A stretch of DNA of 64,000 bases from an uncultured Flavobacteriales bacterium (lineage in GTDB: Bacteria; Bacteroidota; Bacteroidia; Flavobacteriales; Schleiferiaceae), in NCBI GenBank assembly GCA_913055685.1, contig CAJXKC010000001.1, forward strand, positions 992,001 to 1,056,000, given 5' to 3'. Position 1 is the stretch's first letter, and every line of letters starts with the position of its first letter. This document shows positions 6,501 through 59,200 of the stretch, one piece after another. A program made the position numbers and the translations under genes. The notes under the pieces are model-generated. The model had not been told where the DNA came from and searched no databases. It was given only the letters and a program-made list of their open reading frames with translations.

Positions 6501-6506
6501 CCTTTA

Positions 6507-9761: not shown

Positions 9762-9821
9762 TTAATGTGAGGCCATTGGTTCAACTAAAGTACTGCATCT
9801 CTTTAATCGATACATTGGGGT

Positions 9822-9829
9822 CGAAAGTA
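9822..9829 (-). promoter_or_regulatory. Candidate -7 box for the SPOR gene
   Basis: TACTTTCG on the minus strand, about 60 bases upstream of the TTG start. No clear -33 element at the expected distance. Confidence 0.3.
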
Positions 9830-9928
9830 GTTTTCAACAAAGACTTTTTGCTAAGAATTATACGAAAGGCTGCTTTTATTCGATAAAGCGTTAACGAATA
9901 ATTAAGTAGCCTTTTTTTCGAATTTGGC

Positions 9929-9936
9929 TACTTTCG
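9929..9936 (+). promoter_or_regulatory. Candidate -7 box for ftsX
   Basis: TACTTTCG, 17 bases before ATG 9954. It is the same octamer as the divergent box at 9822-9829. Confidence 0.35.
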
Positions 9937-9953
9937 CTGTATTATTGAACTCT

Positions 9954-41456: not shown

Positions 41457-42485
41457 ATGGAGACTTTGTTAATAGTAGTAATATCTCTTCTAGCCGTAAT
41501 GGCTCTGACCCAAGCGGTACGAATCTTTGAGATTAGTTCTAAGATTAAAGGTGGAGATAATGATGTTAAAATCAATGATAAGGACAACAATACCCAAGGT
41601 TGGTTATTGATTCTTTTCTTGGTATTCTTCTTTGGGGCTTTTGCCTGGATGGTTATGGAGTATATGGAAGTAACCCTTCCAGTGTCCGCTTCTACCCATG
41701 GTAAGGATATCGATAGCCTCTGGAATATCTCAATGGGTGTAATCCTAGTTGCATTCTTGGTAACCCAACCTTTATTATTTGGTTTTGCCTTTATGTTCCG
41801 TGGCCGTAAGACGCGTAAAGCGACTTACATGGAGCACAATAATAAATTGGAGCTATTCTGGACTGGAATTCCAGCGGTGGTATTAGCGGGATTAATCCTT
41901 TACGGTCTAACGACTTGGACTAACGTAATGAACCCCGAGAATACAGAAGAGCCAATGGTAATCGAATTGTATGCTAAACAGTTTGGTTGGACCGCGCGTT
42001 ATTCTGGTGAAGACAATACCTTAGGTTTTGCCAATGTTCGCCTTATCGAAGGGGCCAATGTTTTAGGTGTAGATGCTAATGATAAGTTCGCCAAGGACGA
42101 CGTTATTACCAGCGAACTACACTTACCTAAGGATCGTCCCGTTCTTTTAAAATTCCGCTCTCAGGATGTTATTCATTCAGCTTATCTACCACACTTCCGT
42201 GTGCAGATGAACTGTGTACCCGGTACGGAAACACAATTCCAATTTACTCCGGATATTACTACCGCTGAAATGCGTAATGACCCTGAAGTGATTGAAAAGG
42301 TAAAGCGTGTAAATGCTTTGCGTGCTGAGCGTGGTGAAGACCCATGGGAATTCGACTACGTATTACTTTGTAACAAGATTTGTGGCTCTGCGCACTACAA
42401 CATGCAATTGAAAGTGGTTGTTGAGAGTCAGGATGAGTTCGATAAATGGATGAAGGAACAGCAGACTTTTGCTGAAATGTTATAG
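41457..42485 (+). CDS. coxB: Cytochrome c oxidase subunit II
   Basis: 342 residues. Three hydrophobic stretches (about 2-22, 45-65 and 85-110) and another near 138-155, then a periplasmic cupredoxin domain with the complete CuA site: His in QDVIHSAYLPHFR and the cluster Cys305, Cys309, His313, Met316. CuA accepts electrons from the Act cytochromes and passes them to subunit I. It follows actF by 21 bases. No cytochrome c domain is fused at the C-terminus, so it is not a caa3-type subunit II. Confidence 0.95.
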   Translation: METLLIVVISLLAVMALTQAVRIFEISSKIKGGDNDVKINDKDNNTQGWLLILFLVFFFGAFAWMVMEYMEVTLPVSASTHGKDIDSLWNISMGVILVAFLVTQPLLFGFAFMFRGRKTRKATYMEHNNKLELFWTGIPAVVLAGLILYGLTTWTNVMNPENTEEPMVIELYAKQFGWTARYSGEDNTLGFANVRLIEGANVLGVDANDKFAKDDVITSELHLPKDRPVLLKFRSQDVIHSAYLPHFRVQMNCVPGTETQFQFTPDITTAEMRNDPEVIEKVKRVNALRAERGEDPWEFDYVLLCNKICGSAHYNMQLKVVVESQDEFDKWMKEQQTFAEML

Positions 42486-42527
42486 TGAGATAAAGAAAGA
42501 ATAAAGGATAGAAATCGAAAGAAACAC

Positions 42528-44291
42528 ATGGAAGCACACGCACATCACAAAGAAACTTTCATAACTAAATACATCTTCAGTACCGATCACAAAATGATCG
42601 CGAAGCAATTCTTGATCACCGGTATGATCATGGGTATTGTGGGTGTAGGTATGTCTTTACTATTCCGTTTACAGTTGGCATGGCCCGATCAAGAATGGCC
42701 AATCCTCGAAGCTCTTTTGGGTAAATGGGGAACCGACGGTATTATGGACCCTAACATTTACTTGGCCCTGGTTACCATCCACGGTACCATCATGGTATTT
42801 TTCGTGTTAACCGCTGGTCTTAGTGGTACATTCTCAAACTTGTTAATTCCACTTCAAATTGGAGCGCGTGATATGGCCTCAGGATTCATTAATATGTTAT
42901 CCTACTGGTTCTTCTTTGCTTCTTCAGTGGTTATGTTAGCCTCTTTATTCGTTGAGAATGGTCCCGCTGCTGCTGGATGGACAATCTACCCTCCTTTATC
43001 AGCATTACCACAAGCCGTACCTGGTTCTGGTTTGGGTATGACCTTATGGTTGGTATCGATGAGTTTGTTTATTGTATCCTCATTATTGGGAGCATTAAAC
43101 TATATCGTTACCGTATTAAACTTGAGAACCAAAGGAATGAGCATGACGCGTCTTCCTCTTACAATCTGGGCATTCTTTGTAACCGCTATCCTTGGTGTGC
43201 TTTCTTTCCCAGTATTGTTCTCAGCCGCTCTATTATTAATCTTCGATCGTAGCTTCGGTACCTCTTTCTACTTATCTGATATTATGGTAGCAGGTGAGAT
43301 GCTAACGAATCAAGGTGGTAGTCCAATTTTATTCCAGCACTTGTTCTGGTTCTTGGGTCACCCTGAAGTATATATTATTCTTTTACCAGCCTTAGGTATT
43401 AGTTCTGAGGTGATTTCCACCAATGCCCGTAAGCCAATCTTTGGATACCGTGCGATGGTTGGTTCTATCCTAGCGATTGCTTTCTTAAGCTTTATCGTAT
43501 GGGGTCACCACATGTTCGTTACTGGTATGAATCCATTCTTAGGTTCGGTATTTACCTTTACCACCCTTTTAATCGCGATTCCATCGGCAGTAAAAGCCTT
43601 TAACTATATCACCACCTTATGGAAGGGTAATTTACAATTTACTCCTGCCATGTTATTCTCCATCGGTTTGGTTTCCACCTTTATCACTGGTGGTCTAACC
43701 GGATTAATTCTCGGTGATAGCGCCTTGGATATCAACGTACACGATACATACTTCGTGGTAGCTCACTTCCACATTGTAATGGGTCTTTCGGCTATCTTTG
43801 GTTTGTTTGCCGGTGTTTACCACTGGTTCCCAAAACTATTTGGTCGTCGTATGAATAAGAATTTAGGTTACGTACACTTCTGGGTTACCTTCATTTCGGC
43901 TTATGGTGTATTCTTCCCAATGCACTTCTTAGGAATGGCTGGTTTACCACGTCGTTACTACACCAATACTGCATTCCCAATGTTTGACGACTTAGCAGAT
44001 ATCAACGTTCTGGTAAGTTACTTTGCCATCATCGGTGGTATTGCTCAGGTAATCTTTATTTGGAACTTCTTCTACAGTGCACTACGTGGTAAGAAGGCCG
44101 AGCAAAACCCATGGAAATCGAATACTTTGGAGTGGACTACTCCAGTGGAGCATATCCATGGCAACTGGCCTGGTGAAATTCCAGAAGTACACCGCTGGCC
44201 TTACGATTACTCGAAGCCAGGTATGGAAGAGGATTTTGTGCCTCAAACGGTTCCACTGTCTAAAGACGAAGTTGCCACTGGTGGTCACTAA
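42528..44291 (+). CDS. coxA: Cytochrome c oxidase subunit I
   Basis: 587 residues, about twelve membrane helices. Haem-copper oxidase hallmarks: HGTIMVFFVLTAGLSG (haem a ligand), GHPEVYIILLPALG (CuB His and cross-linked Tyr), WGHHMFVTG (CuB histidines) and HDTYFVVAHFHIVMG (haem a3 and a ligands). Reduces oxygen to water and pumps protons. Last gene of the act-cox operon; subunits III and IV are not encoded next to it. A clear terminator follows. Confidence 0.97.
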   Translation: MEAHAHHKETFITKYIFSTDHKMIAKQFLITGMIMGIVGVGMSLLFRLQLAWPDQEWPILEALLGKWGTDGIMDPNIYLALVTIHGTIMVFFVLTAGLSGTFSNLLIPLQIGARDMASGFINMLSYWFFFASSVVMLASLFVENGPAAAGWTIYPPLSALPQAVPGSGLGMTLWLVSMSLFIVSSLLGALNYIVTVLNLRTKGMSMTRLPLTIWAFFVTAILGVLSFPVLFSAALLLIFDRSFGTSFYLSDIMVAGEMLTNQGGSPILFQHLFWFLGHPEVYIILLPALGISSEVISTNARKPIFGYRAMVGSILAIAFLSFIVWGHHMFVTGMNPFLGSVFTFTTLLIAIPSAVKAFNYITTLWKGNLQFTPAMLFSIGLVSTFITGGLTGLILGDSALDINVHDTYFVVAHFHIVMGLSAIFGLFAGVYHWFPKLFGRRMNKNLGYVHFWVTFISAYGVFFPMHFLGMAGLPRRYYTNTAFPMFDDLADINVLVSYFAIIGGIAQVIFIWNFFYSALRGKKAEQNPWKSNTLEWTTPVEHIHGNWPGEIPEVHRWPYDYSKPGMEEDFVPQTVPLSKDEVATGGH

Positions 44292-44313
44292 GATTTAGAA
44301 AAGAAATTTATGG

Positions 44314-44345
44314 AAGTCCTGACCTAAGTGTCAGGACTTTTTATT
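44314..44345 (+). terminator. Intrinsic terminator of the act-cox operon
   Basis: Stem AAGTCCTGAC (44314-44323) with GTCAGGACTT (44330-44339), 6-base loop, T run after. Confidence 0.9.
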
Positions 44346-44350
44346 TTGGA

Positions 44351-44358
44351 TACCTTTG
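44351..44358 (+). promoter_or_regulatory. Candidate -7 box for ruvB-queG
   Basis: TACCTTTG, a full TAnnTTTG match, 14 bases before ruvB ATG 44373, immediately after the operon terminator. Confidence 0.5.
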
Positions 44359-44372
44359 TTAAAACGGTTTAA

Positions 44373-45398
44373 ATGTCACGTTTCCTAGACGGCGAAGAAG
44401 AATTACAAGACGGACACCAGGAGTTTGAGCAGAGGCTACGGCCGCTCAGTTTCGATGACTTTGCTGGGCAAGACAAGGTTCTGGAGAACTTGCGGGTTTT
44501 CGTAGCGGCAGCAAATCAGAGGGGCGAGGCTTTAGATCATGTATTGCTCCACGGTCCTCCGGGATTGGGTAAAACCACCTTGGCCCATATTATCTCCAAT
44601 GAATTGGGAACGGGGCTCAAACTTAGCTCTGGGCCAGTGATTGATAAACCCGGAGAATTAGCTGGTTTACTTACGAATCTGGAAGAGCGTGATGTACTCT
44701 TCATCGATGAAATACATCGCCTTAGTCCCGTGGTTGAGGAATATCTCTATTCGGCCATGGAAGATTACCGTATCGATATTATGATTGATAGCGGTCCAGC
44801 GGCACGCAGTGTTCAGATTAACCTAAATCAGTTTACCCTTATTGGAGCAACCACGCGTAGTGGATTACTCACCGCTCCGCTTCGCGCACGATTTGGTATT
44901 AATAGCCGACTACAGTATTATTCGGTGGAATTGCTATCCAATATCGTAGAACGTTCGGCGCATATATTAAATGTTCCCATTGAGCCTAATGCGGCGGTAG
45001 AAATCGCCCGCAGAAGCCGAGGGACTCCGCGTATTGCTAACGCGCTTTTACGTAGGATGCGTGACTTCGCTCAGGTGAAGGGCAATGGCACCATTAGTCT
45101 AGAAATTGCACAATTTGGCTTGGAAGCCCTGCATGTAGATACCTATGGTTTAGATGAAATGGACCATAAGATTCTCCTTTGTATTATTGATAAGTTTAAA
45201 GGTGGTCCGGTTGGATTAAACACCGTTGCTACTGCAGTAGGTGAACAAGCTGGTACCTTAGAAGAAGTGTACGAGCCTTATCTAATCCAACAAGGGTTTA
45301 TGGTGCGTACGCAAAGAGGTAGAATGGTCACCGAAAAGGCTTATAAGCACCTCGATAAGAAAGATCCCAATTTACAAAACGGTTTATTTGACCTCTAA
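44373..45398 (+). CDS. ruvB: Holliday junction branch migration helicase RuvB
   Basis: 341-residue AAA+ motor that drives branch migration with RuvA. Seen: Walker [14 protein letters not shown], Walker [10 protein letters not shown], sensor 1 [18 protein letters not shown] and the C-terminal winged-helix DNA-binding domain. Its partner ruvA lies in the same window at 52668 but is separate. Overlaps queG by 11 bases. Confidence 0.97.
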
Positions 45399-46320
45399 GA
45401 CGCTTTATACTGAAAAGATAAAGGAAGAGGCTCAAAGGCTAGGTTTCCTCGCTTGTGGGGTCGCAAAAGCACGTTATTTGGAAGAAGAGGCTCCTAGGTT
45501 AGAGGAGTGGTTGACCAGGAATTACCAGGGTGAAATGGCTTATCTCGCCAATCATTTTGACAAGCGATTGGACCCTAGACTTTTGGTGCCTGGGGCCAAG
45601 TCGGTAATCTCGCTGCTCTACAGTTATTATCCAGCCGAGCAGCAGAAGGATGATAGCGCACCTAAATTGGCGAAGTATGCTTATGGGGAAGACTATCACT
45701 TCGTCATCAAGCCTAAGCTTAAAGACTTATTAAACTTTATTCGAGAGGAAATCGGTGAAGTGGATGGCCGCGTCTTTGTTGATTCTGCACCGGTAATGGA
45801 AAGGGTTTGGGCTCAGGAGGCTGGCTTGGGCTGGTTGGGTAAGAATACGCTTCTCCTCAATAAAAGAGAGGGCTCTTTTTTCTTCTTGGCGGAACTCATC
45901 ATTGACCTTGACCTCGACTATGATAATCCGATTCGGACCGATCATTGCGGTACTTGTACCCGATGTATTGACGCTTGTCCCACCGAGGCAATCTTGGCCC
46001 CGAATCTCTTGGATGCATCGAAATGTATTTCTTACCTCACCATAGAGCTTAAGGACGCTATCCCTAATGATTTTAAAGGACAAATGGAGAACTGGGCTTT
46101 TGGCTGCGATATTTGTCAGGATGTCTGTCCATGGAATCGTTTTTCAAAGCCACATCAGGAGGAAGCCTTTAATCCGCATCCCGATTTACTGGAAATGTCG
46201 AGCGGCGATTGGCATGAAATGACCGAAGAGGTATTCCGTAAAGTCTTTAAGAAAAGTGCAGTAAAACGCACCAAGTATAGCGGTTTAAAAAGAAATCTAG
46301 GCTTCATTAAGCCCCAATAA
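45388..46320 (+). CDS. queG: Epoxyqueuosine reductase QueG
   Basis: 310 residues. Cobalamin-dependent enzyme that completes queuosine in the tRNA wobble position. Seen: [24 protein letters not shown], which is the cobalamin/active-site region, and two ferredoxin-type sets [12 protein letters not shown] and [11 protein letters not shown] for two 4Fe-4S clusters. The start is TTG 45388, inside the end of ruvB; the first in-frame ATG lies some 47 codons later and would remove conserved sequence. Confidence 0.95.
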
Positions 46321-46321
46321 A

Positions 46322-46350
46322 AAAGTCCCTCTTTTCGGAGGGACTCTTAA
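46322..46350. terminator. Bidirectional intrinsic terminator
   Basis: Stem AGTCCCTC (46324-46331) with GAGGGACT (46338-46345), 6-base loop, A-rich left and T-rich right flanks. Between queG and the convergent Omp28-like gene. Confidence 0.85.
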
Positions 46351-46371
46351 TTTATTATTCCATAAACCTGT

Positions 46372-47205
46372 TTAAATCTCTATCGATTGAGCTTGCAGAA
46401 TTTCGTAAGTGTCTTTGTCGTAAATAAAAGCAATGACCTCGCAATTTTCCTTTACCGCAATGTCACCATTGGCAGTATTATTTACTAAAGTGATACTTTC
46501 ACTAAAGGTAGCGTTGCCAGAGCTTAGATCGATAGGCGCGCCATAGGTGCCATTAAAGGAACCGCGGAACACATGATCATGCTTATAGTTCTCGTTAACC
46601 GACTTATCGCCCATGGTTTGAGGGGAGATAATTCCGTTTTCGGCTAAGTACAAGCAAAGGTGTACATTGCTCGAGTTAATGGTGCCTGTTACCTGTACGG
46701 TGCCCGAAACACTTAACTCGCGGGTGGAAGAATTATAGGAGTCCTCCTGAATGGTGATTTCCGCCACTGGTAGACGCTCTAATTCCTGAGCAACTAAGCC
46801 AGCCCAATCGCCTTCACCTTTAATAATGCCACCTGTAGAATGATCAATGCGGTTTACAAAACCAACCGGTACACCAAAAAGCTGAAAGAAGTTAAAAAGC
46901 TCTGTTCCCTCTGGGGTGTTAAAAGCCTTTGGATGTTTAGCATCGGTAGTAGCTAAGTTTCCTGCGTGAATGCCAAGTAGAATTAAGTTCTCCTTGCCAT
47001 AAATTGACTGCAATTCTTTGGCTTTGGCGTTTGCAGCCGGACAGTTATTACACTTAACCCCGGTGAACTCTTCTAAGAAAACTTTATGGCCTGTGCCTTC
47101 GTAACCACCTACTTCTACATTTTTTAAATATTCACCCTCTGGAATTTCATCGCAGGCGCTTAAGGCGAATAGTAGGCTCAAGGCAAAAAATAATGTCTTT
47201 TTCAT
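46372..47205 (-). CDS. Omp28-related lipoprotein with thioredoxin-like CXXC
   Basis: 277 residues. Lipobox LSAC with cysteine 18, then an Omp28-type thioredoxin-like domain: HKVFLEEFTGVKCNNCPAAN with the pair Cys52/Cys55, and GVPVGFVNRID as the cis-proline-like region. The C-terminal half is beta-rich (adhesin-like). Outer-membrane lipoprotein, redox role probable. It is last in a minus operon, four bases after the DUF6029 gene. Confidence 0.85.
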   Translation of the reverse strand: MKKTLFFALSLLFALSACDEIPEGEYLKNVEVGGYEGTGHKVFLEEFTGVKCNNCPAANAKAKELQSIYGKENLILLGIHAGNLATTDAKHPKAFNTPEGTELFNFFQLFGVPVGFVNRIDHSTGGIIKGEGDWAGLVAQELERLPVAEITIQEDSYNSSTRELSVSGTVQVTGTINSSNVHLCLYLAENGIISPQTMGDKSVNENYKHDHVFRGSFNGTYGAPIDLSSGNATFSESITLVNNTANGDIAVKENCEVIAFIYDKDTYEILQAQSIEI

Positions 47206-47209
47206 GATC

Positions 47210-48898
47210 CTAGAAATTTGAAGTGATCATCATACTAAATCCGTTTGAGGCAGGAACTACCCTACATATACCACCAACGCAGAACACCCCTTCTTGTTGT
47301 CTACCATAGTTTACTTGGAACTTAGTAGTGCCACGGGTATAACCCATAGAAATAATAGGGTAATGAACTCTTAAATCGGGGTCGGGATGGCCATAGTTAT
47401 AGGCATCCTGCACCGCTACAAACCACTCTGGAGCAATACTGTATTCTAATAATAACATAGCCCACGAGCCACGGTCTTGTTCGGTAAGCATAATCTGCGC
47501 CTCGGTTCGTAAGCTATGCTTGGGTTTAATCTTCCATAAAAATTCGGCCACGGCGGCATTTACATAAACCATGTCCAAATTATTGGGGTCGCTAACCAAG
47601 TCATCGATTACCCCATCTAATAAGGCACTGCGGTTGTAAACGAAATTATAGTAACTAAATGTTCCCTTAAGGTTTTTGTTGATCTTGGTTTTTACTTCAA
47701 CATTAAAGTCTTGAGAGTACTGAATATTGCCAATACCTGCCCAATCTTGATAGCCATCGGTACCGGATATAGTTTGACTGGAATCCAATCCCTGACGGAA
47801 GGTGAAGTCCTTATTTAAAGCATAGGCATTGCTAAAGTTTAAATTAAGGAGGGTACCATATTTACCGCCGAGTAAAGTTCCGCGGTCAAACTTATAGCTC
47901 AGTTCGGCCTGAATACCCGTTTCACCATTCGACTGAATGTTGTAAGAGTATAATGCCGGTAGGGCATAGGTATGCAATTCTGCTAAGGGAGGCAGATAGT
48001 TAATCATGGCCTCTGTAAAGTTTCCTACTCTTTGCGAACGGAACATAAAATTATCGTAGTACTTATAGCCTAAAATCAAGCCCAGGTTTCCCTTAGCATA
48101 AGAGCCGGTTGCATATATAGCGTGCCCTGGTTTATAGATAAAGCGGTTGGTACTGTTAGGGTCTTGCGATTTATAAGCATATTCCGCAAAGATGTTGAAA
48201 TCACCGGCAATGAAATTCGCTCTTAATCCGGCTGAAGCCACATTCTCCGGCAGGTTGTAAATAGGATCTTGCGCCTCTTGAAAACGCGAAATCATGCTGG
48301 CTCCAACAATAAGATTGGTACTGCTGGCTTTATCACGAAATTCGTTAAGGTTTAATTCGAGGTCCCCACCGCGTACAATACCATCACCGGTTTGGAAGTA
48401 GATACGTTGGCGACCCACCAAAGCTTTGGCGGTTAAACCCGGCCTAATATCAAATATCAGGCGCAAGCCATCCATGGCATTATCTAGACCCAGGCCGCGC
48501 TCTTCGTAGGTTCTAAATACTAGTCCCGAGCCAAATTGCTCGTAATAGTTACCTACGGTAATATCGAGACCGTCTTTCTTGTAACGGGCAAAACGGTAGG
48601 GAATACCTTCCCCTTTAAAACCTTCGGGAAGGCCAATTAGGTTATTTTGATAGTTCTCATAGCGAATACCAGCCATGAAATTCCCTTTGGTATAAACCAA
48701 GTTAAGGAAGCCAGCGGCCAACAGCCTTTCATCTGGAAAAGCGTTGCCATTGGGGTCAATTAAAGTATCACGGAGGTAGTACTGAGCATTAGTCTGAAAG
48801 TTACCATGGATCTGACCATAGTCTTTTCCATCACCTTGAGCGCTAGTCTGTCCAATCAGACCTAAGCCAAGGAAGAGTGCAAGTAAAATTCTTTTCAT
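47210..48898 (-). CDS. DUF6029-like outer-membrane beta-barrel protein
   Basis: 562 residues. Signal peptide (about 1-20), then a long run of amphipathic strands consistent with a large outer-membrane barrel; the DGLDITVGNYYEQFGSGLVF motif and the IHGNFQTNAQYY start are those of DUF6029. Two cysteines near the C-terminus (VFCVGGICRV) form a CxxxxC pair. It ends in an aromatic SNF, a usual barrel-assembly signal. Sandwiched between TlpA-like and Omp28-like genes, so possibly an outer-membrane partner of a redox system. Confidence 0.8.
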   Translation of the reverse strand: MKRILLALFLGLGLIGQTSAQGDGKDYGQIHGNFQTNAQYYLRDTLIDPNGNAFPDERLLAAGFLNLVYTKGNFMAGIRYENYQNNLIGLPEGFKGEGIPYRFARYKKDGLDITVGNYYEQFGSGLVFRTYEERGLGLDNAMDGLRLIFDIRPGLTAKALVGRQRIYFQTGDGIVRGGDLELNLNEFRDKASSTNLIVGASMISRFQEAQDPIYNLPENVASAGLRANFIAGDFNIFAEYAYKSQDPNSTNRFIYKPGHAIYATGSYAKGNLGLILGYKYYDNFMFRSQRVGNFTEAMINYLPPLAELHTYALPALYSYNIQSNGETGIQAELSYKFDRGTLLGGKYGTLLNLNFSNAYALNKDFTFRQGLDSSQTISGTDGYQDWAGIGNIQYSQDFNVEVKTKINKNLKGTFSYYNFVYNRSALLDGVIDDLVSDPNNLDMVYVNAAVAEFLWKIKPKHSLRTEAQIMLTEQDRGSWAMLLLEYSIAPEWFVAVQDAYNYGHPDPDLRVHYPIISMGYTRGTTKFQVNYGRQQEGVFCVGGICRVVPASNGFSMMITSNF

Positions 48899-48918
48899 TG
48901 AGAGAGAGGAATGGAGAA

Positions 48919-49431
48919 TTATTCTTCGATGGCTAATCCTGCGTTTAGTTTTTCGATGAGTTCCAATAAGTGGTCTTCATCACCAGGAATATAGCCATTG
49001 TGCTGCCAAACAATATTTCCTTCACCATCTAATAAGAAGGTATGGGGAATGTTATTTACGTTTAAGGCACGCTTTAATTCTTGGTTTTCGTCGAGGTATA
49101 CTTCGTATTCCCAACCCTGACTTTTAGTAAAGGGTTTCACTCGACTTGAATTTCGAGAATCATCCACTGATACCGCTACTAATTTCACCCCGGTTTCTTC
49201 TTGCCAATCAATGTATTGGTCATTAATGGCGTTAAGTTCACGAATACATGGCTTGCACCAAGTGGCCCAAAAGCTTACTACGATTGGCTTGCCATCGTTC
49301 TTAAGACTTGAGGCATCAATCATATTGCCGCTTAGGTCTTTTAATTGAATATTAGGAAGCTTGTCTTGGGCAGAGAGAGAGAAAGATAAGATTAATCCTA
49401 GGCTAAGGGTGGATAATAAATTACGCATCAT
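48919..49431 (-). CDS. TlpA-like periplasmic thioredoxin
   Basis: 170 residues. Signal peptide (about 1-21), then a TlpA/ResA-type thioredoxin fold with the active site WATWCKPC (Cys59/Cys62), the NNIPHTFLLDGEGNIV cis-proline region and DLSGNMIDASSL at the start. Thiol-disulfide oxidoreductase or reductase in the periplasm. First in the operon TlpA - DUF6029 - Omp28 (20- and four-base spacing). Second Met of the MM start is equally possible. Weak minus-strand -7 box TTACTTTG at 49463-49470. Confidence 0.88.
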   Translation of the reverse strand: MMRNLLSTLSLGLILSFSLSAQDKLPNIQLKDLSGNMIDASSLKNDGKPIVVSFWATWCKPCIRELNAINDQYIDWQEETGVKLVAVSVDDSRNSSRVKPFTKSQGWEYEVYLDENQELKRALNVNNIPHTFLLDGEGNIVWQHNGYIPGDEDHLLELIEKLNAGLAIEE

Positions 49432-49647
49432 TTTAAATAGGGCTTAAAAATAATTTAGGCGGCAAAGTAATGATTTTTAGGAGATAATAAGGTCTGGAAT
49501 GGGCTCAGAATAAGTCTATAAATGGCAAGATGCACCAAAGTCTTGGCCTTTTTATAGGAAGCATAAGCTTAAGCTGGGCCAATTGAAATAGGCTAAAAAA
49601 ATAGCCCCGGCAATTGCCGGGGCTAGAAATATTAAGATGGAAAAATC
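49432..49647. other. Intergenic region with two hairpins
   Basis: No gene seen. Holds the minus-strand terminator of the 49648 gene (listed separately) and a second terminator-like hairpin on the plus strand, GGCAAGA (49524-49530) with TCTTGGCC (49541-49548, one bulged G), followed by five T. No plus-strand gene lies upstream, so its role is unclear. A palindrome AGCTTAAGCT is at 49566-49575. Confidence 0.4.
49594..49624 (-). terminator. Intrinsic terminator of the 49648-51714 gene
   Basis: Perfect palindrome with arms AGCCCCGGCAA and TTGCCGGGGCT (49603-49624). On the minus strand it is followed by a T run (plus-strand A run 49596-49602), separating this gene from the TlpA operon. Confidence 0.9.
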
Positions 49648-51714
49648 TTAGTGGGTAACAGCGATACGCTGAGTAGCCATTTTTCCGTCAGTAACAACTT
49701 GTAGGATGTACATACCGGCGTTAAGATCGCTAGTATTAATTACTTCACCCATGCTAAGACCGAAGTCTTTGCTCATTACAGTTTTACCGCTTAAGTCGAT
49801 AATGCTAATGCTTAAGTCTTGCTCTTCCGCTAGCTCGATGTTTAATACATCATTAGCAGGATTAGGATAGATGTTAGCGATAACTACATTTTCGTCTTCT
49901 AAACCAACCCAAGTCATTCCGGCCATGTTAGCGTTCATGATTTGACCATTGTCACGATCTTCAACGAAGATTACTACTTCAACATCGTTGTTCCACAGGT
50001 TAAAGTTACCAGTAGAACCACCGCTTACACCACCAACAGTAAAGTTGTAGCTTTCAGTGAAGCTAGCGCTAGCACCAGCAGCTAAAGAAAGGGCAGTACC
50101 ATTAGGGTTAGGTAACATTTTACGCATTACGTGCTTGTAGTTGAAGTCGCCATTAGTAGCTCCATTAAATACGTAGTTATTTTGCATAACTACCATTTGA
50201 AGGGCATAGTTACCAGCGGTAAGGTCCAAGTTAGAAGTAACGGTAGCGTTTACAGTTACGTCAGCTGAGTTAGAACCTGAAGAACGATCGTAAGTAGCGT
50301 AACCATTTAAGCTAACAAATGCAGGCTCTGAACCACCAGCTTGCTCAGCAGCTTGGTAAGCAGCAAGGGCATCACCCCAAGTCTGTACTGCACTATAGTC
50401 TACTTCAGTACCATTAGCTAACATAGTAGGAGCCGCGTTTACACCATAGTAAGAACGACGAGCGTCAGAATCTGGGTTGTGACTTGGATCTCCTGGGCTT
50501 GGAATAGGCACTTGGTATTTTACTACTAAAGGATTACCTGCTTTGTTGTAGTTAGCAAGAGCGGTGTTGTATACGTTGTCGTTCCAAGACTTACATGGAG
50601 GACAAGTAGAACTAGAAAATTCTTCCGCTAAGAAACGACGTGGAACATCCTGAGCAGCTTGTAAGTTTACAGTTACGCTGTTATCACCAGGATTGGCGTC
50701 CGTGTTGTTGTTAGGATCGCTAACGTCTAAATCAATGCTGTATGAACCAGCCGCTGGAGCAGTCCAACCTGGATTCATGGTAATGGTAGTGAAGTCACCA
50801 GTTCCTAAGGAACCAGAGAATGCAGTAGTACCAGTGTTACCAGCGTTATCGTCGAAGTTGTAGTTGAAAGCGGTAATAGTTTCAGAACCTTTGTTACGAA
50901 CTACTGCTTCGAAAGTTTCAGTGCTAGATAAACCAGCGATTTCGTTTGCAGATACACTTACTAAAGTAAGGTCGTACTGAGGCTGAGTACCGTAAACGAA
51001 CTCGTAGTAGGTATTGTCTAAAGCGTCAGACTGGCTACCACCAGTAGCAGTGTTCTGAGAAGTTAATGCAGGAGAACCAGCTACAGTGTATGCAGTTGAT
51101 CCGTTGATCTGAATACCAGCAGAAAGAGCTACGTTGGTACCACCTTGAGAATAGCTACGCATGTCTACAATGTAAATATTGTCGCTAGTTTCTTCAAATA
51201 CGATACCCCAGTAAGTCCAACCAGCACCTAAAGTAGAGCTAGAGGCTGAAGCCCAGATAATCCAGTGCTGACGGTTTGGAGCAGTACCAAAAGTCTTCGA
51301 TACAACTGCATCGTTGGAACCTGTAAGATCCATACCCCAAGCACAAACAGAGTTGTTTGGAATACTAGCCGATGGTAAAAGGGCTGGAGTAAATCCTGGA
51401 GTAGTTGAAGGAGCAGCACTTGAGAAAGTAACTACACCAGAAGAAGCAACAAAATAAGTTGTTACCGCATTACCATTAAAGTTAAAGCTAAATGGTAAAG
51501 TCTGTGCAGAAGACCAAGCGTCGGCAGTGCTAGAACTTAGTACGCTGGTGTAACCGAGGTTGTTTCCAGCAAGGAAGGCCTCTGGTTGTTCGGGGTCATT
51601 GTTTAGGTTACCTGGATTGAAACCGGCGTTAATCGCTGGTAACTGGTAGTAACCCTGACCCATTAAGCCAAGTGTCATGGCCATCAAGAATAGGGATAAG
51701 TAATACTTTTTCAT
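49648..51714 (-). CDS. T9SS-secreted protein with Omp28/thioredoxin-like domain
   Basis: 688 residues. Signal peptide (about 1-20), an N-terminal beta-rich domain of about 220 residues, a CARDB-like domain (about 245-350), then an Omp28-type thioredoxin-like domain with FLAEEFSSSTCPPCKSW (Cys371/Cys374) and a GVNAAPTMLANG cis-proline-like loop. It ends with a T9SS type A domain (ANIYPNPANDVLNIEL, DLNAGMYILQV). So a predicted thiol-active domain is carried to the cell surface. Separate transcript from the TlpA operon, but same strand and adjacent. Confidence 0.85.
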   Translation of the reverse strand: MKKYYLSLFLMAMTLGLMGQGYYQLPAINAGFNPGNLNNDPEQPEAFLAGNNLGYTSVLSSSTADAWSSAQTLPFSFNFNGNAVTTYFVASSGVVTFSSAAPSTTPGFTPALLPSASIPNNSVCAWGMDLTGSNDAVVSKTFGTAPNRQHWIIWASASSSTLGAGWTYWGIVFEETSDNIYIVDMRSYSQGGTNVALSAGIQINGSTAYTVAGSPALTSQNTATGGSQSDALDNTYYEFVYGTQPQYDLTLVSVSANEIAGLSSTETFEAVVRNKGSETITAFNYNFDDNAGNTGTTAFSGSLGTGDFTTITMNPGWTAPAAGSYSIDLDVSDPNNNTDANPGDNSVTVNLQAAQDVPRRFLAEEFSSSTCPPCKSWNDNVYNTALANYNKAGNPLVVKYQVPIPSPGDPSHNPDSDARRSYYGVNAAPTMLANGTEVDYSAVQTWGDALAAYQAAEQAGGSEPAFVSLNGYATYDRSSGSNSADVTVNATVTSNLDLTAGNYALQMVVMQNNYVFNGATNGDFNYKHVMRKMLPNPNGTALSLAAGASASFTESYNFTVGGVSGGSTGNFNLWNNDVEVVIFVEDRDNGQIMNANMAGMTWVGLEDENVVIANIYPNPANDVLNIELAEEQDLSISIIDLSGKTVMSKDFGLSMGEVINTSDLNAGMYILQVVTDGKMATQRIAVTH

Positions 51715-51772
51715 AACAAAAACTTAAGATTGTAGAGGCCGAAAATAATTGAAAAATAATTCAAATACCACC

Positions 51773-51798
51773 TTGAATGCGTGAATTTTATACTTTTG
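51773..51798 (+). promoter_or_regulatory. Candidate promoter for the 51822 gene
   Basis: TTG 51773-51775, 15 bases, TACTTTTG 51791-51798, 23 bases before ATG 51822. A minus-strand TATTTTCG at 51740-51747 could serve the divergent 51714 gene. Confidence 0.45.
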
Positions 51799-51821
51799 TC
51801 TTTGAAAGTTAAAACTCTGCT

Positions 51822-52541
51822 ATGATCAGAAAAATATTCTCCACTCTTATCGTATTTAGTACACTTACTATTGGTGCCCAAGCTCAGCAAAGCTTAGAGA
51901 TCACTTGGCAAGATACCTTGGTAGAAGGAAATGCCTGGGTAGATGGCGATTTGGCCGGCTACGCTGTAGTTAAAAATATTTCTAGCCTTCCGGTGGAAGT
52001 AGCCTTTAAAAGGATAGATGCTAATTACACAGCATTAACCGATAGCAATGCTATTTGCTGGGGACTTTGCTTTACAACTAACATTTCGCAAAACCCAGTA
52101 TCCTTTAATAGAACCATTCAGCCTGGTGCTACAGATACCGCTATCGTACACGTGTATCCCGATTTAGATGGCTACACGCGTGATGGTTTTATCGATTATG
52201 TTTTGTTTGATTATTACAATCCTACTGACTCGGTTGCTTTCCGAATCGACTTTAAAGTTAATGGTCAGCCTTTAAACCTAGTAGAAGCACCTAAAGCAAG
52301 TCTTTCGGTATACCCAAATCCTGCTAAAGACTTCTTGAAAATTAACTATCAAGTGAATAGTTCTGACGAGGCTCAATTTGAACTAATCAATATTGTGGGT
52401 GCTCGTGTGCTAAGTAAAAGACTTGATGCCCAAAAGAACAAGGCAGAGGTAGATTTAAGTACATTGAAACCTGGTGTCTATTTCTACACCCTTAAAGTGA
52501 ATGGCAGCCTCCAGGTATCTAAAAAATTAGTTATCGAATAA
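51822..52541 (+). CDS. Small T9SS-secreted protein
   Basis: 239 residues. Signal peptide (about 1-21); a single beta-sandwich-like domain (about 22-150) with a Cys pair in CWGLCF; then a T9SS type A domain (SLSVYPNPAKDFLKINY, LKPGVYFYTLKVNG). The N-terminal domain has the look of an Ig-fold with PGATDTAIVHVYP but no named family. Monocistronic, with its own promoter and terminator; divergent from the T9SS thioredoxin-like gene. Confidence 0.82.
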   Translation: MIRKIFSTLIVFSTLTIGAQAQQSLEITWQDTLVEGNAWVDGDLAGYAVVKNISSLPVEVAFKRIDANYTALTDSNAICWGLCFTTNISQNPVSFNRTIQPGATDTAIVHVYPDLDGYTRDGFIDYVLFDYYNPTDSVAFRIDFKVNGQPLNLVEAPKASLSVYPNPAKDFLKINYQVNSSDEAQFELINIVGARVLSKRLDAQKNKAEVDLSTLKPGVYFYTLKVNGSLQVSKKLVIE

Positions 52542-52566
52542 TATTGACGAATATTCATCGTTAAGT

Positions 52567-52597
52567 AGCCGTCCTCCTAAGGGGCGGCTTTTTTTAT
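52567..52597 (+). terminator. Intrinsic terminator
   Basis: Stem AGCCGTCC (52567-52574) with GGGCGGCT (52582-52589, one G-U pair), then T7. Confidence 0.85.
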
Positions 52598-52626
52598 TTG
52601 TCAGGAGTATTAAAAGCTTATTTTTG
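52597..52626 (+). promoter_or_regulatory. Promoter candidate for ruvA-sprA
   Basis: TTTG 52597-52600, 18 bases, TATTTTTG 52619-52626: both elements match the Bacteroidota consensus. 41 bases to ruvA ATG. Confidence 0.55.
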
Positions 52627-52667
52627 GCGTTTTTTAAGCAGATAAGCAACCAAGCCAGCTTAGTTTT

Positions 52668-53249
52668 ATGCTACACCACATCAAGGGAATGTTAACCGAA
52701 ATCAAGCCAACTACCGCTATCATTGAATGTGGTGGGATAGGTTATGAAATCAATATCTCCTTACATACCTATTCGGAAATCAGCCGCAATAAAGAGGTGA
52801 TGCTTTTCCTTTATCCTATTTATAAGGAAGATTCGCAAAGCCTTTATGGTTTTGCTAGTCGCTTGGAAAGAGAAGTGTTTGGACACCTTATAAGTGTAAA
52901 CGGGGTAGGTGGAAATACTGCCAGAACAATATTAAGTAGTTTAAGTCCGGCCGAAGTAATTGCGGCAATTGGTCGTGAGGACGCCGCTCTTTTGCAATCA
53001 GTAAAAGGCATTGGTGGTAAAACGGCCCAAAGGGTTATCATCGACCTTAAAGATAAAATGGCTGCATTGGTTCCTGAATCAGAAAGTCTAGGCAGCCTCG
53101 ATCACAATTTGAAAAGAGAGGCTTTGGCAGCCTTAGAGGTTTTGGGCTATTCGGCTCGACAAACCGACCGGGTTATTTCGAAGATCTTACAGCAAGAGTC
53201 TCAAATTACCATTGAAGAACTTATAAAAGCGGCGCTTAAAAAACTTTGA
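52668..53249 (+). CDS. ruvA: Holliday junction DNA helicase subunit RuvA
   Basis: 193 residues. OB-fold N-terminus (MLHHIKGMLTEI, VIIECGGIGYEINI-type strand), two helix-hairpin-helix motifs (LISVNGVGGNTARTIL and LQSVKGIGGKTAQRVI) and the C-terminal RuvB-binding domain. Tetramer that holds the four-way junction for RuvB. Its TGA overlaps the sprA TTG start by three bases. Confidence 0.97.
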   Translation: MLHHIKGMLTEIKPTTAIIECGGIGYEINISLHTYSEISRNKEVMLFLYPIYKEDSQSLYGFASRLEREVFGHLISVNGVGGNTARTILSSLSPAEVIAAIGREDAALLQSVKGIGGKTAQRVIIDLKDKMAALVPESESLGSLDHNLKREALAALEVLGYSARQTDRVISKILQQESQITIEELIKAALKKL

Positions 53250-56200
53250 CGCAAAAAGGTATATACCGATTTTTTATAGCGGCTGCTACGCTTTTTCTCA
53301 TTTACTCTTTTACAAAAAGGGAAAGGGCGGCGGTAATAGTTGCTGCACCCGATATGACTAGTCTGGCGATTAGTTTAGCGGATACAAATGACCCGGATTC
53401 TACTCTTCGCTATCCCTTTTCGAACGGAGAAAGTGGTGGGCTTTACGGTAATCAACCAGGGAATTACCAGGAAAAGGTGGAATACGATGCTTCAAGTGGC
53501 AACTATTTTGTCTACCGACAATATGGTCGCTTTAGTGCGGAGCCGCCTATTGTTATGAATCCTGATCAATACCGCGCCTATGTTGCGCGTAAGCAGGCTT
53601 TGGATTATTGGAATAGCAAGACTAAAAGTGCCGAAGCAGCTAAAGCGGAAGGTCGCGATCCTGAAAGTGGACTTATTCCTCAGATAACCGTTAACAGTGA
53701 AACCTTTAGTCGCATTTTCGGCTCTAATACCATTGATATTCGTCCGCAGGGTTTTGCCGAATTGACTTTTGGGGGGCGTTTTCAAAAAATTGATAATCCT
53801 ATTATTCCCGAACGAAATCGAAATGTTTTTACCTTCAATTTCGATCAACGCATTCAAATGAATGTGAATGGTAGTGTCGGGGAAAAGTTGAAAGTAAATG
53901 TAAACTACGATACCGAAGCCACCTTTGCTTTTGAGAATCAGGTTAAAGTAGAATTTACAGGCTTTGAGGATGATATTATCAAAAAGATAGAATTAGGTAA
54001 TGTAAACCTACCCTTAAACTCTTCCTTAATTACGGGAGCACAAAGTCTCTTTGGGGTAAAAGGGCAATTTCAGTTTGGTAAGCTAACCTTAACAGGTGTT
54101 TTCTCGGAGCAGCGTTCACAGTCAAGTTCCCTAAATATTCAAGGGGGTGCCACTACTACCGAGTTTGAGATTTGGGGTGATCAATACGAGGCTAACCGAC
54201 ACTATTTCCTTTCGCATTACTTCCGTAATAATTACGAGCGTTTCCTCGAAAACTCGCCCCTGATTACTTCCCCGGTTCAAATTACCAAGGTCGAAGTATG
54301 GGTAACGAATAACCGTCAGAATACGCAAGATGTCCGCAATATTGTGGCATTTATGGATTTGGGTGAGAGTCAGGCTAACGCTTACCGCGACGGTAGTCAG
54401 ACCTCGGGTCCCAATATTTTCGCAACTAATTCGAGTACTAATTTTCCCGATAACCTTTCCAACGATTTAGATCCGGTTACCCTCGCCTCGCAATATCCGG
54501 GGGTGCGAGATATCGCTCAGGTTAACCAGGTTTTAAATGGAGCGGGCTTTGAAGAAGCTACGGAATACGTGGAGCTGGCTAATGCCCGGAAACTGAATTC
54601 CAATGAATATAATTTTCATCCCCAATTAGGTTATATAACCTTAAATACTGCCCTTAATCAGGATGAGGTTTTAGCAGTAGCATTCCAGTATACTGCCGGT
54701 GGACGAACTTACCAGGTGGGTGAGTTTAGTACCGACGGAGTTACGCCTCCTAATAATTTGGTAGTAAAAATGCTGAAGAGCTTTATTCTGGATGTGCGGG
54801 CGCCTAATTGGGACTTAATGATGAAGAACGTGTACTCATTAAGTGCTTTCCAAGTAGGTTCGGAAGATTTCCGCTTGCAGGTTTTGTATCAGAATGATGA
54901 AACTGGAACGCCGGTCCCCTTCTTGCCGGAAAGTAATCTGCGTTCGGAGCTATTACTGCGGGTGATGGACCTGGACCGTCTAAATCAGAATAATGATCCG
55001 CAGCCCGATGGATTCTTCGATTTTATACCTAATGTTACCATTTACCCGCAGAACGGTCGAATCTTTTTCCCAGTCTTAGAGCCTTTCGGTTCTAACTTGG
55101 CCAATAAGCTAAATACTGATGAGTCGAAGGAGAAGTACGTTTTTCAGGAACTTTATGACTCGACCCGTTTTGTGGCCCAGAATGAGACACAGAAGAATAA
55201 ATACCTCATTCGCGGTCAGTTTAAATCTTCCTCCTCGAGTGAGATTCAGTTGAATGCTTTTAATATTCCGCCGGGTTCGGTGAGTGTAACTGCGGGAGGT
55301 ACGCGTTTAATTGAAGGCCAGGACTATCGCGTAGATTATAATTTAGGCCGGGTGAGTATTCTTAATGAAGGCATATTAAATTCAGGGGTGCCCATTAAGG
55401 TGGATTTTGAGAACAATGCTCTTTTCAACTTCCAGACCAAGACCTTCATGGGGCTTAATGCCGATTATCGCTTCAGTGAGAATTTTAACCTTGGAGCCAC
55501 CATGGTTCATTTAAATGAGCGGCCTTTAACCCAAAAGGTGAATATTGGTGATGAGCCTATCTCCAATACCATTATGGGCTTTAATGGTAATTACAGTACC
55601 GATGCGCCCTTCCTAACCCGAATGGTGGATGCTATTCCCTTTATTTCCACTAAAGAAAAATCGAATTTATTGGTAAGTGGGGAAGTGGCACAGATTTTCC
55701 CAGGTTCGCCAAGAGGTATAGAAATAAATGGCGAGCAAACCACTTATTTAGACGACTTTGAAAGTTCGCAAACTACCATTGATATTCGTAATCCAGCCGC
55801 CTGGCGCTTAGCCTCTACTCCGGCTGGGCAACCTTTACTTTTCCCGGAGGCTACCGAAAATAGCATTGCTTATGGCTTTAATCGGGCGCGCTTAGCTTGG
55901 TATACGATTGACCCACTTTTTCATAATGATGAGGCACGTACTCCCGATAATATTAAGAATAACAAAGGCCTACAATCCATAAATCCAGTACGTGAGGTTT
56001 TAGTAGATGAGGTATTCCCGAACTTGCAATTAGACCCATCGCAGCCGCGGAATATTGCTACCCTTGATTTGGCCTATTATCCACGCGAAAGAGGTCCCTA
56101 TAATTACGACGTGGAACCTACTACCTTCTCGGCTGGACTTAATCAGAATGGCTTATTAAACGATCCCCGTAGTCGTTGGGCGGGTATCATGCGCGATGTT

Positions 56201-59200
56201 TCGGTTACCAATTTCGAGGAGCAGAATATTGAGTTTATCCAATTTTGGGTAATGAACCCATTCGTGGGGGTAAATAATCCACCACAGGGAGGGGATTTAT
56301 ACTTTAACCTCGGTAGTGTTTCGGAGGATATTTTGCGCGACGGGGTGCAAGCCATTGAAAATAGTATACCCGTAGATGGAGACTTAAGCAAACTGGATTC
56401 CACAAGGTGGGGTTATGCTAGTAATGTTAGGCCTCCAGTGGTGGCTTTCGATGCCGATCCTGCCGCTCGGGATTTGCAAGATGTGGGTTATGATCTTTTG
56501 AATGATGATCAGGAACGAACCTGGGTGAGTGATTCTGCTTACGCTAATTATATTCAGCGTATCAGTAATACATTTGGTAATGCTGCGCCCGCCTATGTTT
56601 TAGCGAATGCAGACCCAGCAGCAGATAACTTTCAGTATTACCGAGGTAGCAATTTAGATGCCGATGCAGCGGATATTCTCGAGCGCTATAAAGCCTTTAA
56701 TAACCCCCAAGGAAACTCTAATCCCACTCCTATTGGTGGGGTGTCGGCTTTCGCTACTAACTTGCCGGACATTGAGGATATTAACCGAGATCAAACCTTA
56801 AGTAAGGCCGAAACCTATTACCAATATCGCGTGAGTATGCGCCCTCAAGACTTGCAGGAAGTGGGGCAGAACTACATAACCGATATCTACCGCACTCGCT
56901 CTCCCGAGCAGCCTAATGGTCAGGCTTACGATGTAGAATGGATTCAGTTTAAAATTCCTGTTTTTAATCCCGATTCTCGCGTCGGACCTATAAACGACTT
57001 CCGTTCGATTCGTTTTATCCGAACCTTCTTGCGTGATTTCCCAGAGCCGATAGTGCTTCGCTTTGCGCGGATGGAGCTGGTTCGAGGAGAGTGGCGTCGT
57101 TTCCAATTTGCTTTGGACGGTACCCGTGACCGTTTAAATAGCGACGATCAGCAGAATACTATTTTTGAGGTTAATGCGGTGAATATTGAACAAAATGGTT
57201 CAAGAAGTCCGGTACCTTATGTGCTACCTCCTGGAATCGACCGCCAAGTTTTGTTTGGCACCACGGCGGCTAACCAGCAGAATGAACAGGCTTTATCGCT
57301 ACGTATCCTAAATTTAGAAGATGGCGACGGCAGGGCGGTATTCCGGAATATCGATTTCGATATGCGCTTGTATAAGCGACTCAAGCTTTTTACTCACCTT
57401 GAGTCGGCCGGCGAATTCGATGACCTTAATGATGGCGATTTATCGGTGTTTATTCGTTTAGGCTCCGATTATAACTTTAACTTTTACGAGTACGAAATTC
57501 CATTAAAGGTTACCCCTTGGGGAGTAAGTAATTCGGATGTTGGCTTAATCTGGCCTAGCGAAAACCAAATGGATTTTGCCCTACAAATTTTAAAGGACGT
57601 TAAATTAGAGCGTAATCGCGCGTACCGTAATACGGGTGATCCGCTTAACGAGCCTTATACTGTAAATAGGGGTGGAGGTCGCGTTACCGTGGTAGGTTCT
57701 CCAAACCTTGGGAATGTGCGCACCATGTTAATTGGGGTGCGGAACCCTAAGAAACGATTGGCGAATGATCCCGATGATGGTTTGCCAAAAGATGCCGAAG
57801 TCTGGATCAACGAATTACGTTTAACCGAGTTTGATCAGGATGGAGGCTGGGCGGCAAATGCACGGGTGGCAGCAAAGCTGGCCGACTTTGCTAATGTTTC
57901 GATAACTGGTAGTACTAGCTCCATCGGATGGGGATCCTTAGATCAAACGGTATCGGAGTTCCAGCAAGAGGAACGTTATTCATACGACTTGCAGACCAAT
58001 GTGGAGCTCGGCAAGTTCTTCAATAAGGACCTAGGTATTCGTATTCCTATGTTCTATGGTGCTTCAGAAACTTGGATCAACCCTCGTTTTAATCCGCTTG
58101 ACCTGGACATTGAGTTTGATGATGCCTTGGCAAATATTGAAGATCCGGTTGACCAAGACTCCCTGCGGCAGGCCACCCAAGATTATACCCGTCGACGTTC
58201 CATCAATTTCACCAATGTGCGGAAGGAACGTAATGCGAATAAGGCGAACCGAAATCCACAGATTTACGATATCGAGAACTTCGCCGCCAGCTACTCCTTT
58301 TCGGAGGTTTTCCGGAGAAATATCAATACTCGATTCGATTTAAACATCCGGCATACTGCCAGTTTAAATTATACGTATCGGGCCCGTCCTAAGCTAATCA
58401 AACCTTTTAGTAAGGTCAGTTGGCTGAAGAGCGATTGGTTTGGTTTAATTCGCGATTTCAACTTCTATCCCTATCCAAAGAACTTCACCGCTATTGCCAG
58501 TTTGGATCGTAATTATACGGCAATGCAGATGCGGAATACGGATGCCATCCTTAACGATATTCCACCTGAGCTATTGGGTAATATGGAGGCGACTTACAAC
58601 AAGAATTTCAATTTAAATCGCCAGTACACCCTACTATATGACATTACCCAAAACCTGCGTCTCGATTTTAATGCCAGGATGGGTACGCGTATCGATGAAT
58701 TGTTAGGTGCGCCGGGCACCGATTCGAACCGAGCAGAAATCATGAACAACCTACGTGATTTCGGGCGACCGCTAAACTACCACCAAAAGATTACCATCAA
58801 CTGGCAAATTCCAATCAATAAAATTCCATTGCTGGATTTTGCTACGGCTACTGCAACTTATAATGGTGACTACGATTGGCAAACTCCTTCTCAAAGGGCC
58901 AATGGCATCGCAAATCAAGGGCAGCAAGGCGGAAATGCCAATTCAAATTTCAATTTGAACTTTGGTAATACGATTCAGAATAACCGCCAAATTCAGTTAA
59001 ATAGTACTCTAAACTTTAATGCGCTTTACAATAAAGTGCCTTATTTGAAGAAGGCCATGGCGGGTGGGACGCAGACGAACCAACGTCGCAGGCCAAGAGG
59101 GGTTCCCGTGCCTGGACAAAGACGTAGACCCAATGAAGGGGACAGTGGCGAAGGCGATGAGGAGGATGAGCCTTCCGTATTCGATAAAATTTTGATGAGT

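Follow-up and report, generated by a model that had tools for sequence, protein, structure and literature searches.

Thiol reducing power is moved across a membrane by DsbD and ScsB via membrane-embedded cysteines; for the outer membrane we know of no route for thiol electrons, and surface thioredoxins such as HBP35 of Porphyromonas gingivalis therefore have no evident electron source. Here we analyse a cluster of thiol proteins around a DUF6029 outer-membrane beta-barrel that may provide one. The cluster lies within the window, a 64,000-nucleotide stretch from an uncultured Flavobacteriales bacterium of the Schleiferiaceae (assembly GCA_913055685.1, contig CAJXKC010000001.1, positions 992,001 to 1,056,000, forward strand), and coordinates are those of the window unless another locus is named. 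We propose tentatively, at just short of an even chance, that the cluster is a trans-outer-membrane thiol-disulfide relay, most likely passing reducing equivalents outwards. The proposed relay resembles DsbD and ScsB in principle; those are helical inner-membrane proteins, whereas DUF6029 is a beta-barrel. The TlpA protein of the window is close to ResA chains, yet the partners known for ResA/TlpA oxidoreductases, apocytochromes c or copper proteins, are unlike the outer-membrane barrel found here.

Three described systems invite comparison. MtrCAB of Shewanella likewise forms one conduit in which a large barrel in the outer membrane links a redox carrier on the inner side with a partner outside the cell, but its redox groups are c-type haems and its barrel, of 26 strands, surrounds MtrA (PMC7198977), whereas the window cluster has thiols and a cysteine pair in the barrel. 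HBP35 shares the fold of the window's Omp28 lipoprotein, and its delivery by the type IX secretion system (T9SS) is what we predict for the protein encoded at 49648–51714. Its insulin reductase activity depends on Cys48 and Cys51, one form is on the cell surface, it binds hemin and sustains growth under hemin shortage, and in earlier work reported in the same paper an hbp35 plasmid complemented an Escherichia coli dsbA mutant; the excerpted text differs from our proposal in stating no barrel partner or electron source (PMC2907840). SprF/PorG and GldK are likewise Bacteroidota outer-membrane proteins with twin cysteines, forming exchangeable disulfides in T9SS and gliding, but they serve mechanical attachment via a C-terminal tail, not a thioredoxin redox relay (PMC12635249). 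Among the papers listed by searches of a mostly open-access literature, judged by titles and abstract openings, none describes such a relay, and within that literature DUF6029 is mentioned by name only in PMC9603273.

If the relay is real, the system would be categorically new, built of proteins that each come from a known family. It would give DUF6029 and Omp28 a function and, in 42 of 148 sampled genomes (more than one quarter), would do with thiols what the Mtr wire does with haems, explaining how surface thioredoxins such as HBP35 are recharged. The module offers a named barrel, a donor in the periplasm and acceptors at the surface, which makes the question testable.

Layout of the cluster

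The original prediction, made from the sequence alone, had placed four genes side by side on the minus strand, encoding a TlpA-like thioredoxin (CKPC), a DUF6029 barrel, an Omp28 lipoprotein (CNNC) and a T9SS-secreted protein with a thioredoxin-like domain (CPPC). Genes, families and motifs were all confirmed, the Omp28 match of the T9SS protein being borderline. To these we add a CX4C pair in the barrel, a fifth gene and a terminator-like hairpin before the core genes:

49648–51714, minus strand: protein with a T9SS tail and, internally, a thioredoxin-like domain of the HBP35/Omp28 type; CPPC at 50593–50604; Por_Secre_tail (PF18962) 57.2 bits against a cut-off of 27, Pfam Omp28 35.3 bits against 34.9
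49602–49625, minus strand: terminator-like hairpin at the boundary between the T9SS gene and the three-gene core; 10-pair stem, 8 GC pairs, T run
48919–49431, minus strand: TlpA/ResA-like thioredoxin, predicted periplasmic; WCKPC active site, CKPC at 49246–49257
47210–48898, minus strand: DUF6029 outer-membrane beta-barrel; PF19494 561.5 bits against a cut-off of 27; 24 strands counted on the model
47264–47281, minus strand: CX4C pair of the barrel, CVGGIC, residues 540–545 (C540, C545), in the predicted last extracellular hairpin
46372–47205, minus strand: lipoprotein of the Omp28 family, with a beta sandwich following its thioredoxin fold; CNNC at 47041–47052, lipid Cys18 at 47152–47154
46324–46345, no strand assigned: hairpin with T runs in the gap where the Omp28 and queG genes converge, listed on the plus strand by the scan, with a T run visible on the minus strand; possible shared terminator
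51822–52541, plus strand: fifth component, a small T9SS-tailed protein of 239 residues with CX3C (CWGLC at 52056–52070), divergent from the T9SS gene

On the minus strand the order of transcription is T9SS-tailed gene, hairpin, TlpA, DUF6029, Omp28. The last three genes, with gaps of 20 bp (TlpA–DUF6029) and 4 bp (DUF6029–Omp28), are an operon-like core. The T9SS-tailed gene is probably a separate transcription unit, because a strong terminator-like hairpin (49625–49602) stands at its end; such hairpins numbered 8 in the scanned region, where 4.9 would be expected. The cell locations of the CXXC proteins are predictions, that of Omp28 being the least certain. Searches of 46200–52700 with Rfam at gathering scores found no match, and PADLOC returned no result.

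A conserved cysteine pair in the barrel

Homologous loci were drawn from two sets. A phylum sample of 148 genomes, the phylum being Bacteroidota to judge by the named relatives, held 42 with DUF6029 by Pfam profile and 106 others; a set of 80 named loci, the best 80 of 584, had been found through the cysteine motif and is therefore uninformative on its conservation, so the 42 profile-found loci were used instead. Of the 42 profile-found DUF6029 proteins, 41 have a CX4C motif among their last 60 residues, against none of 467 control open reading frames (other frames of at least 400 residues in the fetched loci). The single miss, counted as such, is a DUF6029 gene in two pieces (locus L133), probably split by a frameshift; this split gene (8714–10333 of its locus, genome G023) has TlpA and Omp28 genes alongside. 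Exactly two cysteines occur after residue 25 in 31 of the 42. C540 and C545 are invariant among 16 aligned DUF6029 sequences (the window and 15 of 29 loci, 22–44% identical to the window protein); a further alignment took in 66 of the 80 named loci plus the window.

The AlphaFold model of the barrel (predicted local distance difference test (pLDDT) 90.8, predicted template modelling score 0.86) has 24 barrel strands by our own count on its DSSP line, with short turns on one side. A strand at 525–534 leads into a hairpin (537–541/544–548) that carries the cysteine pair, followed by the last strand (551–561). Because the strand count sets this hairpin on the long-loop side, the pair is predicted to face outside, in the loop before the last strand. 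Among re-aligned chains, the nearest fold neighbours were OprD/Occ/AlgE porins (Z up to 18.9, root-mean-square deviation (rmsd) about 6) and usher barrels (FimD, 3ohn; Z 17.9, rmsd 4.4, 376 aligned residues), with Z values within 1 treated as tied. The DUF6029 profile had no match among Protein Data Bank sequences. A chain of the Mtr complex, 6r2q_B, stood at rank 32 in the Foldseek list for the barrel, and no Mtr chain was among the 50 re-aligned chains listed; we draw homology from neither list nor layout. CXXCH, the motif of multihaem cytochromes, does not occur in the translations of the five genes.

The thioredoxin-like partners

TlpA is of the AhpC/TSA–TlpA type (83.2 bits), with the AhpC/TSA–Redoxin fold and WCxPC motif confirmed. 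Its C59 and C62 are invariant in 36 aligned sequences (35 of 72 TlpA plus the window). By eye the N terminus is signal-like, and periplasmic export is predicted. The solved chains next to it in sequence, after the uncharacterised 2m72 (E 2.6e-48), are those of ResA reductases (E 6e-20 to 2e-17). We take 2m72 to be PG_2175 of P. gingivalis; with PG2173 an Omp28 lipoprotein and PG_2174 the adjoining tag, the TlpA–DUF6029–Omp28 trio probably exists in that species too, in which case PG2174 would be the DUF6029 barrel. PG2173 is identified as the immunoreactive lipoprotein Omp28 (PMC9722745) and PG_2174 as an uncharacterised vesicle protein (PMC4335976), and the neighbouring locus tags fit the gene order of the window.

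The Omp28 lipoprotein matched NF033782 at 187 bits (curated cut-off 150) and Pfam Omp28 at 78.9 bits. Invariant residues in 65 aligned lipoproteins (64 of 71 Omp28 plus the window) are C18, C52, C55, P113 and three others. The lipid-attachment Cys18 is present in the window protein, with Pfam LPAM_1 at 14.1 bits, below its cut-off of 20; a strict lipobox pattern matched 47 of 96 sequences and was too strict, and the lipid cysteine was counted by alignment column instead. At least two acidic residues occupy positions +2 to +6 after this cysteine in 52 of the 65. Surface exposure of Omp28 is plausible, since this acidic stretch resembles the published Bacteroidetes lipoprotein export signal in charge, without being identical to it (PMC5080379).

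The AlphaFold2 model of Omp28 (pLDDT 90.4) reads as a thioredoxin fold and then a beta sandwich, with CNNC starting the first helix and a proline at the thioredoxin cis-proline position. Its best solved match is HBP35 (5y1a; Z 25.1, rmsd 2.6, 220 aligned residues, 19% identity), which the Omp28 sequence profile reached as well (E 3.4e-8). Compared by hhalign, the Omp28 profile also matched that of the TlpA set (probability 83, E 8.5e-6). The T9SS protein, which carries a C-terminal sorting domain, aligned with the profile of Omp28 lipoproteins across 216 columns, most of the Omp28 length, its CXXC being in register (probability 97.6, E 4.3e-12). A thioredoxin fold with CXXC joined to an Omp28-type beta sandwich is thus read in the lipoprotein by model and in the T9SS protein by profile alone. 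An NCBIfam model named Omp28-related selenoprotein (NF045500) exists and matches the window Omp28 weakly (48.9 bits, cut-off 200), hinting that selenocysteine may replace cysteine in Omp28 relatives.

Conservation and co-occurrence of the core

Conservation of the CXXC cysteines, on which the original prediction hung, was near complete. They are kept in 74/74 adjacent TlpA and 111/112 Omp28-type genes of the 80 named loci, and in 38/38 and 36/36, respectively, of the 42 phylum-sample loci; the iterated Omp28 profile takes in both lipoproteins and T9SS types. A chance origin of the motifs was rejected on these counts.

DUF6029 and TlpA go together throughout the sample: a profile of the module-type TlpA scored at least 90.9 bits in 42/42 genomes with DUF6029 and at most 85.8 bits in 106/106 without, with up to 24 first-look candidates scored per genome and the 90-bit line drawn after the scores were seen. 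Omp28 (PF11551) was found in 31 of the 148 genomes, 29 of them among the 42 with DUF6029; 13 genomes had DUF6029 alone and 2 had Omp28 alone (Fisher p 1.8e-18; none of our Fisher tests takes phylogeny into account). Both PF11551 matches of the window's own genome are at this locus.

The genes are also linked. At the named loci TlpA adjoins DUF6029 in 74 of 77 evaluable cases and an Omp28-type gene lies downstream in 73 of 78; Phaeocystidibacter luteus (L033) and Hymenobacter duratus (L089) are environmental species that carry the whole set. In the phylum sample TlpA lies within 400 bp at 38 of 42 loci (upstream in the same orientation at 35, divergent at 3), covering 15 of 17 families; of the remaining four, two have it at 1.0–1.3 kb and two (genomes G109 and G128) on other contigs. 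With 13 AhpC/TSA-type matches per 2.96 Mb in the window's own genome, chance would seldom set a TlpA beside any one barrel. Away from the closer relatives it is common for Omp28 genes to be unlinked or replaced, or to lie on the opposite side of the barrel gene. The T9SS-type gene is less tightly linked than the three-gene core: an Omp28-type gene lies within 2.6 kb upstream of DUF6029 at 34 of 68 evaluable named loci, and the phylum-sample figure is lower (below). Co-occurrence of the four genes, as first envisaged, thus held for the core and only loosely for the T9SS gene.

Partners that are not adjacent mostly persist. Five named-set genomes have no Omp28 downstream although their flanks are long enough, and four of these (L083, L051, L075 and L095) keep a full-length Omp28 elsewhere; L070, searched too, has Omp28 at the locus. 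The three genomes without an adjacent TlpA (L060, L083 and L070) all retain it at 244–263 bits, the next best match scoring at most 65. Adjacency as nothing more than inherited operon order was rejected, since unlinked partners mostly persist and Omp28 can be swapped for other redoxins.

Replacement of Omp28 in one family

In one family (f22), 12 genomes have weak DUF6029 matches, all 12 with a CTSGIC pair; at least six more of its sampled genomes are without DUF6029. PF11551 had no match in any of the 12, which account for 12 of the 13 Omp28-less genomes with DUF6029. TlpA overlaps DUF6029 by a few bases, and directly downstream of the barrel comes a redoxin-like protein of 172–196 residues with CPHC, the DsbA-like motif, or with CTHC or CSHC (12/12). 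A second, longer redoxin (265–275 residues) is next in line in 11/12. Pfam confirmed AhpC/TSA in both redoxins of locus L119 and the first of L111, and the T9SS tail in the second of L119, the one scanned; the other tails look alike by eye. The strict lipobox pattern fits 4 of the 12 first redoxins, which suggests lipid anchoring for a few only. That this family builds a like layout from other thioredoxin-fold proteins, the layout surviving a change of parts, is the strongest argument for conservation of redox function rather than of one protein pair.

Near one swapped module (L112) a further thioredoxin-like protein with CTYC is encoded on the other strand (6409–6936 of that locus). By eye, a lipoprotein-like protein with TolB-like repeats is encoded at 11102–12160 of L112 and 6719–7840 of L119; its relatives occur upstream of DUF6029 at 11 of the 42 phylum-sample loci and 1 of the 80 named loci, at a median distance of 627 bp.

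A likely fifth component

The divergent neighbour at 51822–52541 has a T9SS tail (PF18962, 57 bits, cut-off 27) and homologues at 41 named loci, out of 62 that could be evaluated, and at 16 phylum-sample loci, out of 41. A CX3-5C pair is kept in 55 of 58 family members. When 42 of the 58 were aligned, no column but those of the two cysteines was invariant, an invariance that is partly chosen, because the 16 left out include all three members without the pair; 55/58 is the fair count. Genome-wide, the CX3C domain was found in 21 of 148 genomes, 17 of them with DUF6029 and 15 at the DUF6029 locus itself. In G109 the CX3C protein adjoins the unlinked TlpA. The protein seems to belong to the module. 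At one locus (L137) four Omp28-type genes lie upstream of DUF6029, and one of the four carries a CX3C domain as well.

The proposed relay and its alternatives

In the relay as we picture it, an inner-membrane transporter of the DsbD/CcdA type would reduce periplasmic TlpA at its CKPC, and TlpA, admitted to the barrel lumen, would reach and reduce a labile CX4C disulfide of DUF6029. By protein contact and thiol exchange the barrel pair would then reduce the CXXC of an Omp28 lipoprotein facing outwards, and Omp28 would pass electrons to T9SS-delivered surface partners, the HBP35-like CXXC protein and the small CX3C protein, and through them to a final customer. The specific role given to DUF6029, a thiol conduit in or under whose 24-strand barrel TlpA docks to reduce a cross-strand CX4C and so power a network of thioredoxins at the surface (Omp28 with the HBP35-like and CX3C proteins, or other redoxins), is a possibility we rate slightly below that of the relay as a whole. 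The idea of a relay, already part of the original prediction with its direction left open, gains from the barrel cysteine pair, the redoxin swap in f22 and the HBP35 match. In its favour too are the co-occurrence and adjacency of the genes, the persistence of unlinked partners and the presence of SprA in 42/42 genomes with DUF6029.

Outward reduction is favoured over oxidation because TlpA is ResA-like, DsbD_TM is present (148/148 genomes, with two matches in the window's own genome) and that genome has no VKOR or DsbB match (DsbA was not searched, and DsbB was searched there alone). Across the sample VKOR is uninformative, occurring in 6 of 42 genomes with DUF6029 and 26 of 106 others.

Several points weigh against the relay. 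What the analysis shows is the genes, their co-conservation, the conserved cysteines, the predicted folds and the swap in f22; electron transfer, contact, redox state and direction are inferred. TlpA-like proteins often act in cytochrome c maturation or folding, and a conserved cysteine pair can be a structural disulfide. The outside placement of the CX4C pair rests solely on strand counting on a predicted model, in which strongly conserved loops (118–142 and 282–326) may plug the lumen. The best fold matches of the barrel are porins, an alginate exporter and ushers, and a role in polysaccharide secretion has been proposed for DUF6029 from HHpred similarity (PMC9603273); the authors of the HBP35 study report no positive result for protection from oxidative stress (PMC2907840). 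In the phylum sample, an Omp28-type gene is directly downstream at only 23 of 42 loci (27 anywhere in the fetched stretch) and a T9SS-type Omp28 gene lies within 2.6 kb upstream at only 5 of 41 evaluable loci. Genomes G086 and G120 have Omp28 without DUF6029, the L060 genome has only weaker matches and no full-length Omp28 lipoprotein, DUF6029 is absent from 4 of the 21 genomes that have the CX3C protein, and 3 of the 58 CX3C family members lack the pair.

Dedicated biogenesis is the alternative that survives best, though we consider it unlikely: TlpA would make, break or check a structural disulfide in the folding barrel, with Omp28 as barrel chaperone, and no electrons would cross. TlpA is the tightest partner of DUF6029, the pair provides the sole cysteines after residue 25 in 31 of 42 proteins, and in the model the hairpin cysteines, facing each other, could just staple the hairpin. 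Assembly of the LptD barrel depends on disulfides. Biogenesis leaves unexplained, however, the further CXXC proteins, one of them T9SS-tailed, their replacement by redoxins in 12 genomes, and the CX3C protein.

Redox-gated or redox-assisted transport is more improbable still. DUF6029 would be a porin or exporter of polysaccharide, haem or metal, with thiol proteins preparing the substrate or opening the pore. This would fit the OprD/Occ, AlgE and usher fold neighbours, the HHpred link to Wzi-like polysaccharide porins (PMC9603273) and the hemin binding and hemin-dependent growth support of HBP35 (PMC2907840). However, among the neighbour families surveyed by eye (up to 30, each present in at least 6 loci) no polysaccharide-export genes were recognised; TonB-receptor-like genes make up two families, each found next to 7 phylum-sample loci. 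The cysteine pairs are among the few residues kept by all partners.

The weakest alternative, an oxidative relay carrying electrons inwards from the thiols of exported surface proteins and so giving T9SS cargo its disulfides, is very doubtful: SprA in 42/42 genomes with DUF6029, the CPHC motifs of most f22 redoxins and the hbp35 plasmid that complemented a dsbA mutant (PMC2907840) speak for it, but 75 of 117 genomes with SprA lack DUF6029, TlpA resembles ResA reductases and the window's own genome offers no VKOR or DsbB match to accept the electrons (DsbA not searched). The purpose first suggested for the relay, folding of disulfide-containing T9SS cargo, is likewise unsupported, because so many SprA-bearing genomes do without the barrel; the ResA-like TlpA, and DsbD_TM in a genome with no VKOR or DsbB match, point the same way. 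Dependence on T9SS as a defining trait was rejected despite the 42/42 count; 31 genomes lack SprA, and the test is weak because 19 of the 20 listed belong to one family.

Neighbouring genes

Beyond the fifth gene lie ruvA (52668–53249, by eye) and the T9SS translocon gene sprA (53246–60637, profile match); both families recur in the fetched flanks of 24 of the 80 named loci. On the other side, ahead of the module, 41457–46320 encodes cytochrome oxidase subunits, RuvB and QueG, named by eye except QueG (profile); their families recur at 17–23 of the 80 named loci. The cytochrome oxidase genes, recurring at 17–20 of these, read as local synteny.

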